From Protofrankia sp. CiT1 (lineage in GTDB: Bacteria; Actinomycetota; Actinomycetes; Frankiales; Frankiaceae): a stretch of 32,509 nt of DNA. The notes under the pieces are model-generated. The model was not told the origin of the DNA. It did not search any database and worked only from the letters and a program-made list of their open reading frames with translations. The position numbers were made by a program, and so were the translations under genes. Below are positions 13,747 through 14,861 of the stretch, piece after piece. The stretch lies in contig NZ_CAKJTL010000031.1 of the NCBI RefSeq assembly GCF_917627385.1, forward strand, positions 1 through 32,509. Direction: 5' to 3'. The number at the start of each line of letters is the position of its first letter. Position 1 is the first letter of the stretch.

Positions 13747-13791
13747 TTGATCGTGCTCTTCGCTTCGGCTATGCTTCGAACGTGAGTTCGA
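13747..13791 (+). promoter_or_regulatory. Promoter overlapped by a perfect LexA (SOS) box
   Basis: TTGATC (13747-13752) and TATGCT (13770-13775) are 17 nt apart. Directly after the -10 element lies TCGAAC-GTGA-GTTCGA (13776-13791), a perfect palindrome matching the mycobacterial/actinobacterial SOS box TCGAAC-N4-GTTCGA. LexA bound there would cover the transcription start, so the downstream HNH gene should be DNA-damage-inducible. The GTG inside the box is in frame but lacks an RBS. Confidence 0.85.
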
Positions 13792-13820
13792 CTTCCTTTG
13801 GGGCGGAAGGGGTGGCTGGT

Positions 13821-14693
13821 ATGCGGTTGGCTGATCTGCCCGCACGGCGGGGTATGGCGGCTCGGTTCGATCCGCTCTCTGATCCTGACGCCGTGAGCGG
13901 AGATCGGAACGGCGCTCATCGGGCGTGTGCGTTGACCGTGTCGTCCTCGCTCGAGGGCAAGATGTTCCTGCGGGGCCAGCTCGACGCCGAAGGAGGGGAG
14001 ACTGTCACCGCGGCCTTGGACGCGGCTATGGGAGGAGCGCCCGCGGCAGACGATACGCGCTCCAAGGATCAGCGTCGGGCGGACGCCCTGGTCGAAATCG
14101 CCCGACATTATCTGGGCCAGGCGGATCTTTCGCAGGTGCATGGCCATCGACCGCAGCTGACCGCTGTAGTCGAGGTCGCGGCGTTGCTACCGCCGGTGCG
14201 GGCAGCAACCTCGGCGGCCTCAGAAGCCGGCTCGGACCCTTCTGCCGTCCCCGCGCGTGCGGCAGCGGCGGTCCGTCCGCCGGAGTTTCCCACCAGGCTC
14301 ACCGTCCGTGCTGGTTTCACCGGCGGATGGCCGATCACTCCTGCCGCCATCCGCCGGATCGCGTGCGACGCACGAGTCAGTCATCTGCTGACCTGGGGCG
14401 AAAGCAAAATTTTCGATCTCAGCCGGGAGGCTCCCACAGTCTCTGCCGCGCAGCATCGCGCGTTGGAGCTCCGCGACGGCGGATGCGTCTACCCGGGCTG
14501 TGACCGGCCGCCGTCGTTCTGCGACGGTCATCATCTCGTGCATTGGATCGACGGGGGGCCGACTGAACTCGACAATCTTGTTCTGCAATGCGGGCGGCAT
14601 CATCGCAGGCTCCATGAGGAAGGCGAGACCCTCTACCGTGACGACATCGGCACCTGGCGGATCCGGAGAGCCGACGCCGACAGTGAGCCCTAG
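13821..14693 (+). CDS. DUF222/HNH endonuclease (13E12-repeat family), N-terminally short
   Basis: A 290-residue protein. Residues 25-100 match only the last part of the DUF222 domain (LEGKMFLRGQLDAEGGETV, then QRRADALVEIARHYL). A variable Ala/Pro stretch follows, and the C-terminus is an HNH nuclease: GCVYPGCDRPPSFCDGHHLV, then DNLVLQCGRHHRRLHEEG, with conserved His, Asn and His residues. Family members usually have 400 or more residues, so the helical start of DUF222 is missing. The start at 13821 is chosen from GGAAGGGG 8 nt upstream and because it follows the LexA-controlled promoter; the frame is open further upstream to 13713. Mycobacterial relatives include SOS-induced genes. The TAG stop appears to be supplied by the left end of repeat element B1. 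Confidence 0.85.
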   Translation: MRLADLPARRGMAARFDPLSDPDAVSGDRNGAHRACALTVSSSLEGKMFLRGQLDAEGGETVTAALDAAMGGAPAADDTRSKDQRRADALVEIARHYLGQADLSQVHGHRPQLTAVVEVAALLPPVRAATSAASEAGSDPSAVPARAAAAVRPPEFPTRLTVRAGFTGGWPITPAAIRRIACDARVSHLLTWGESKIFDLSREAPTVSAAQHRALELRDGGCVYPGCDRPPSFCDGHHLVHWIDGGPTELDNLVLQCGRHHRRLHEEGETLYRDDIGTWRIRRADADSEP

Positions 14694-14861
14694 GGCGTGT
14701 TTCGAAAGCCATCTGTCCGGCTCGCCACGTCCAGGCGGCCTCTGGCTGCGTTCTCGGCCACACCGATACAACTCATCCGGTATCGGTGTGGTCTGCGGCC
14801 TTGCCAGGAACCACCTGGACGCGCCTTCCTGATCGAACGACGACTTCCGAAACACGCCGTA
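14691..14861 (+). repeat. MITE-like repeat family B, copy 1
   Basis: The element begins TAGGGCGTGTTTCG and ends CGAAACACGCCGTA, imperfect 14-bp terminal inverted repeats with an exact 11-bp core (14694-14704 and 14848-14858). Inside are nested stems: CGTCCAGG with CCTGGACG and CCACACCGATA with TATCGGTGTGG. It resembles 17714-17811 but carries about 73 extra nt in the centre. The TA ends suggest a TA target like Tc1/mariner or IS630 elements, as an inference. It fills the gap between the convergent HNH and clpB genes, and its hairpins could stop transcription from both sides. Confidence 0.8.

Follow-up and report, generated by a model that had tools for sequence, protein, structure and literature searches.

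The window analysed here, a stretch of 32,509 nucleotides that makes up contig C31 of the Protofrankia sp. CiT1 genome, carries a gene of the DUF222/HNH family whose start codon lies inside a perfect LexA-type box. With good confidence, we read this gene as a LexA-repressed, DNA-damage-inducible and 5'-shortened member of the actinobacterial DUF222/HNH (13E12-type) nuclease family. Comparison of gene starts in relatives indicates that DNA damage very probably induces this nuclease family.

Promoter, operator and start codon

The major features of the gene are summarized in Table 1. The box, TCGAACGTGAGTTCGA (TCGAAC-GTGA-GTTCGA), has no mismatches and is the sole perfect match to TCGAAC-N4-GTTCGA in the window. 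As a sequence-only reading of this DNA had noticed, it stands directly behind a TTGATC-17-TATGCT promoter, the whole arrangement occupying positions 13747-13791. The two hexamers agree with the sigma-70 consensus at 8 of 12 positions, and the promoter is absent from the output of a sigma-70 consensus scan; the promoter call rests on the position of the -10 element, which is conserved in relatives. In one member of the family (G007), five genes carry [GT][CT]GAC[AG] with an equally long spacer of 17 nt. The same reading had placed the box upstream of the HNH part of the gene, but it actually lies at the gene start, where it overlaps the putative start points of both transcription and translation.

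Table 1. Features of the shortened DUF222/HNH gene and its control region (window coordinates)
Feature	Position	Strand	Basis or remark
-35 element TTGATC	13747..13752	+	17 nt 5' of the -10 element; compare G007 genes at equal spacing
-10 element TATGCT (TANNNT), adjoining the box	13770..13775	+	position kept in relatives
LexA operator (SOS box), predicted	13776..13791	.	perfect match; motif also before own lexA and other DUF222 genes
GTG start codon within the operator, putatively also the transcription start (leaderless)	13782..13784	+	register shared with relatives
CDS, shortened DUF222/HNH protein, 303 aa	13782..14693	+	open frame; DUF222 profile 135-306 and HNH; HNH residues kept
Alternative SD GGAAGGGG (13805-13812) and in-frame ATG (13821-13823)	13805..13823	+	sequence; unnecessary if GTG13782 is used
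C-terminal half of the DUF222 domain	13881..14477	+	PF02720 search
HNH nuclease motif	14499..14618	+	PF01844 match; predicted core residues 221-300, block pLDDT 71-95

GTG13782 starts 7 nt past the end of the -10 element. With so short a distance the mRNA is probably leaderless, starting at or beside this codon, and a ribosome-binding site would be superfluous. The spacing is that expected of a leaderless actinobacterial gene (start about 7 nt past the -10 element) and is conserved in relatives, and an operator of the TCGAAC-N4-GTTCGA type overlapping the promoter, as seen here, is expected of a LexA (SOS) regulon member. The ribosome-binding site that had earlier been called intact is indeed present as an SD-like sequence, but it can serve only ATG13821 and has no bearing if the gene is leaderless from GTG13782. 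A terminator scan also lists the box, because the palindrome is followed by T's; a terminator hairpin was rejected for an element that sits at the start of a gene.

Over the 5.02 Mb of the genome there are only six perfect boxes against one site for the reversed control pattern, and 52 boxes against 17 control sites when one mismatch is allowed. Upstream of a lexA gene on contig C153, recognised by eye, lie three sites with at most one mismatch each, which argues that the motif is the local LexA operator; further sites precede DnaB-like and UvrD-like frames, named by eye and without a profile. TCGAAC-N4-GTTCGA is, on this evidence, the predicted LexA operator type of this genome, and the M. 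tuberculosis SOS box as published is the identical motif (PMC4181829, in excerpt).

The shortened protein

The start of DUF222 is missing, as the sequence-only reading had stated. Only profile positions 135-306 of 306 are matched (52.8 bits against a Pfam cut-off of 24.4), together with an HNH domain (PF01844, 24.6 bits). Pfam, alignment and structural model agree that the protein is a truncated member lacking the N-terminal helical half of DUF222, about 170 residues when set against full-length relatives. In the alignment, the operator-encoded first codons are followed almost at once by the segment that starts near residue 170 of those relatives. All residues of the HNH part that are invariant in a 23-sequence alignment (C235, C240, H250, H251, N265, C270, H273, H274 and H278), with the presumed catalytic and zinc residues among them, are kept. 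In the AlphaFold2 model of a full-length relative (L035), residues 1-169 form a confidently predicted helical domain, which is followed by a beta hairpin and the remainder; the ordered part of the window protein opens with the hairpin that follows this domain. The truncation point is thus predicted to coincide with a domain boundary (about residue 169 of L035), in models whose mean pLDDT values are 61.5 and 70.4 and whose middle region is largely poor. Neither PADLOC nor NCBIfam returned a family match for the window protein, PHROGs returned a generic HNH match only, and no solved structure was found by sequence. Foldseek found nothing meaningful for the full-length model; for the window model it aligned only the HNH core of McrA, Gme, IscB and Cas9 proteins, at E values of at least 0.05 that are not significant.

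Directly 3' of the stop codon, at 14694-14861, lies a palindromic repeat of about 170 bp with TAG on either side and the ends GGCGTGTTTCG...CGAAACACGCC. It has 43 matches in the genome, partial ones counted, and looks like a MITE, a small element separate from the DUF222/HNH gene.

The short form, suggested earlier to be the functional unit, is no more than a candidate for that role. It has no ortholog in four congeners, where the best matches are partial with 46-48% identity, and full-length forms prevail everywhere among relatives. In one congener (G004) the neighbouring polysaccharide deacetylase gene and clpB lie 1.1 kb nearer each other with no DUF222 gene between them, so the gene was either gained in the window genome or lost in G004. 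The window gene could therefore be a decaying pseudogene: a deletion would have taken the roughly 170 N-terminal residues, the operator and promoter would have survived, and the LexA control would be real but without consequence. The missing N-terminal part, the lack of an ortholog of the short form in four congeners, the gene-free locus of G004 and the insertion of one of the 43 small-repeat copies right behind the stop codon all favor such decay. The frame, however, is open over 303 codons, the cut falls at a predicted domain boundary, with the retained part opening at the beta hairpin that follows, and no invariant HNH residue has been lost. We regard decay as a serious contender that falls a little short of even.

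DUF222/HNH genes in the genome and in relatives

A PF02720 search of the genome located DUF222 on contigs C20, C41, C147, C67, C57 and C31, and 5' ends of the C67-type gene also occur terminally on contigs C59 and C175, the three being near-identical. The sequence-only reading had proposed a search for boxes before such genes. In the window's own genome, all seven readable DUF222 5' ends have a box with at most two mismatches at their start (none on C20 and C31, one on C67, C59 and C175, two on C41 and C147); C57, whose 5' end is lost at a contig end, stands outside this count.

The search was extended to 41 named loci, mostly from Geodermatophilaceae (Klenkia, Geodermatophilus, Blastococcus), and to a further 80 in genomes around that of the window at the level of genus, family and class. 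Among the 112 genes with a usable 5' end, a box lies near the start with at most zero, one and two mismatches in 11, 51 and 70 cases, respectively. For comparison, 59 permuted palindromes of the same composition gave means of 0, 0.12 and 1.8 and maxima of 0, 1 and 10 in the same stretches. No box of up to two mismatches was found at 42 of the 112 genes, which weighs against the LexA reading. When the best DUF222 gene of each of 30 class genomes is taken, a box is present in 13 with at most one mismatch and in 16 with at most two, figures that are lower bounds because the longest frame picked at several loci looks to be on the wrong strand. A DUF222/HNH gene is present in 108 of 148 class genomes. 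Plasmid and phage records yielded six weak matches. Among these, a Rhodococcus plasmid gene has a one-mismatch box that lies 47 nt before the annotated start, the only boxes of three Tsukamurella plasmid genes carry two to three mismatches, and the gene in a phage record has no box. The old and conserved link between DNA damage and these nucleases that had been suspected is borne out by the 51 of 112 relatives' genes and by 26 of 27 matches in a blind search described below; an old and widespread SOS link of DUF222/HNH genes is thus supported at the level of sequence.

Several further observations concern the surroundings of these genes. A GACCTG(G/C)GGATTC-like sequence is conserved about 33-45 nt before the box in DUF222/HNH genes of Geodermatophilaceae (L023-L044; e.g., L035, L036 and L029) and is possibly the site of another regulator or a part of the promoter. 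At L129 (G007:C27), where a DUF222 gene has its own box, the exact 16-mer of the window box stands 403 nt farther upstream, before a short 41-codon frame. On Tsukamurella tyrosinosolvens plasmid 18 (L282), an annotated DNA polymerase IV gene stands two genes from a DUF222/HNH gene.

DUF222/HNH could be a dispersed repeat or a selfish nuclease gene, its SOS operator favoring its own spread during active recombination rather than host repair. Genomes carry the gene in several copies, with a maximum of 30 matches; there are three near-identical gene starts in the window's own genome and a 1.1-kb length difference from G004 at the locus, and 13E12 family members carry traits of mobile elements (PMC5005354, in excerpt, citing Davis 2002). 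Yet no terminal repeats, target duplication or transposase were seen at the gene, G004 may instead have lost it, and the copies are mostly diverged. We consider selfish spread possible but rather doubtful.

Start codons embedded in the operator

In relatives, the start codon occurs inside the operator in two registers. In register 7, ATG occupies box positions 7-9 (TCGNAC-ATG-NGTTCGA) and the proteins start with M-C/R/S/G-S; TANNNT ends at the base preceding the box in 14 of 15 such genes, the window gene counted, which sets the codon 7 nt after the -10 element. The window gene belongs here with TATGCT-TCGAAC-GTG-AGTTCGA (V/M-S-S-T), its GTG-AGT-TCG-A aligning with ATG-TGT/CGT/AGT-TCG-A. Nearly all other relatives in this register have ATG rather than GTG, which counts against our reading of the window gene. 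In register 9, ATG occupies box positions 9-11, the proteins start with M-F-E/D, and the recognisable -10 element has mostly moved to -4 or -5 with the distance to the ATG nearly the same; between registers, then, the operator shifts by two bases and the distance from -10 to start stays near constant. In a third group, which includes C67 of the window's own genome, the box lies 19-44 nt upstream of the frame, and these genes would be leadered. Some two-mismatch boxes deep within long frames in this survey are probably chance. Coding constraint was rejected as the cause of box conservation, since genes that read this DNA in either of two frames, or have it upstream of the frame, all keep it.

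A composite of -10 element, box and embedded ATG, TANNNT-TCGNACATGNGTTCGA (searched as TANNNTTCGNACATGNGTTCGA), has 27 matches in the 148 class genomes against none for its reversed control. DUF222/HNH follows in 26 of them: 22 read from that ATG, two have the same start cut at contig ends and two have DUF222 in another frame just downstream; the other match (L252) is unrelated. The second-register pattern, TANNNTGAACNNATGTTCGA, has 12 matches in the same genomes against one for the control, and ten are DUF222/HNH (nine read, plus the masked locus L122), one is DinB-like by eye and one is a stray start without DUF222. The 27 and 12 matches stem from only 11 and 6 genomes, G093 giving 14 of the 27, and hence are not independent cases; the composite was drawn up after relatives had been seen and was blind as to genomes and gene content only.

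Composite starts of the second register also occur without DUF222. At L274 (G044:C88:56433-56452) the MFE-register form belongs to a gene that by eye resembles DinB/DNA polymerase IV, so DUF222 genes do not have the embedded operator start to themselves. L280 (G000:C159:3189-3208), which lies in the window's own genome, has a stray promoter, box and MFE start of the DUF222 type but no DUF222 behind them, perhaps a recombination remnant.

We incline, somewhat beyond an even balance, to the view that in Actinomycetes a sizeable part of DUF222/HNH genes superimpose -10 element, LexA operator, transcription start and leaderless start codon in two registers, and that the operator-written first residues (M-[C/R/S/G]-S or M-F-[E/D]) would mark SOS control from protein sequence alone. 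For the window gene, it is unlikely that translation truly starts at ATG13821, the overlap of box and GTG being coincidental and the operator still repressing the promoter: the SD there is plausible and has an 8-nt spacing, but relatives place their ATG at exactly the same box position in 15 genes, 14 of them with an adjoining -10 element, and in the 27 blind matches. That the box is a chance palindrome, as a CG-rich genome with 17 near-perfect control sites in 5 Mb might produce, is hardly credible given the perfect match, the exact abutment to the -10 element and the recurrence throughout the family.

Proposed regulation and function

From these features we infer how the preferred reading, a LexA-controlled nuclease gene, might work. 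Bound to the 16-bp box, a LexA dimer would occupy the promoter from about -6 to +10. It would cover the edge of the -10 element, the putative start point and the first codons, and would block transcription initiation. On damage, RecA-stimulated self-cleavage of LexA would free the operator, RNA polymerase would start at or beside the GTG within it, and translation of the leaderless mRNA would begin at its very first codon, with no need for a Shine-Dalgarno sequence. The gene would encode an HNH DNase that most likely works on DNA during the SOS state; candidate roles are repair-associated nicking or cutting, damage-triggered DNA degradation, for which MSMEG_1275 (PMC9416677) offers a comparison, and selfish spread.

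If this is true, the window gene would show that operator and HNH module can be retained while the helical domain is discarded. DUF222/HNH is an abundant and uncharacterised actinobacterial family, and the signature would link a large fraction of it to the SOS response, predict leaderless expression and provide a function-level handle, DNA damage. It would also mean that an operator constrains the N-terminus of the very protein it regulates.

Comparison with known systems

For the mycobacterial 13E12 (DUF222/HNH) family, LexA control has been published before, and the association with SOS boxes that the sequence-only reading named is found in the literature: the M. tuberculosis LexA regulon includes several 13E12 genes (PMC5005354; PMC4181829, which cites LexA ChIP support; both in excerpt). 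For 10 HNH genes of the 13E12 family, a role in mismatch repair has been proposed (PMC4181829, in excerpt). Mitomycin C induces five putative HNH endonucleases in a RecA-dependent manner (PMC8151990). An operator-embedded leaderless start as a family-wide architecture is not described in the literature searched, part of it available as excerpts; this is weak evidence of novelty because Davis 2002 lay outside that literature.

McrA and Gme-type HNH nucleases are the best Foldseek matches of the window model, a likeness of the HNH core only (E at least 0.05) with a dissimilar DUF222 part. Overexpression of MSMEG_1275, an HNH DNase from M. smegmatis, leads to cleavage of the cell's own DNA and is lethal (PMC9416677). 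MSMEG_1275 and the window protein are both actinobacterial HNH proteins, compared at the level of HNH, and the control reported for MSMEG_1275 is an ArsR regulator. The lexA gene of M. tuberculosis is leaderless, its transcription and translation starts coinciding (PMC2897130, in excerpt). As an SOS gene with coincident starts it resembles our reading of the window gene; it differs in encoding a repressor rather than a nuclease, and the excerpted text does not mention a start codon within its operator. The 13E12 (REP13E12) genes of M. tuberculosis differ from the window gene in organism and in having the N-terminal half of DUF222, and an embedded leaderless start is not mentioned for them in the excerpts of PMC5005354 and PMC4181829. 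They share with it the DUF222/HNH architecture and the operator TCGAAC-N4-GTTCGA, and for them regulation by DNA damage has been reported (PMC5005354, PMC4181829, in excerpt).
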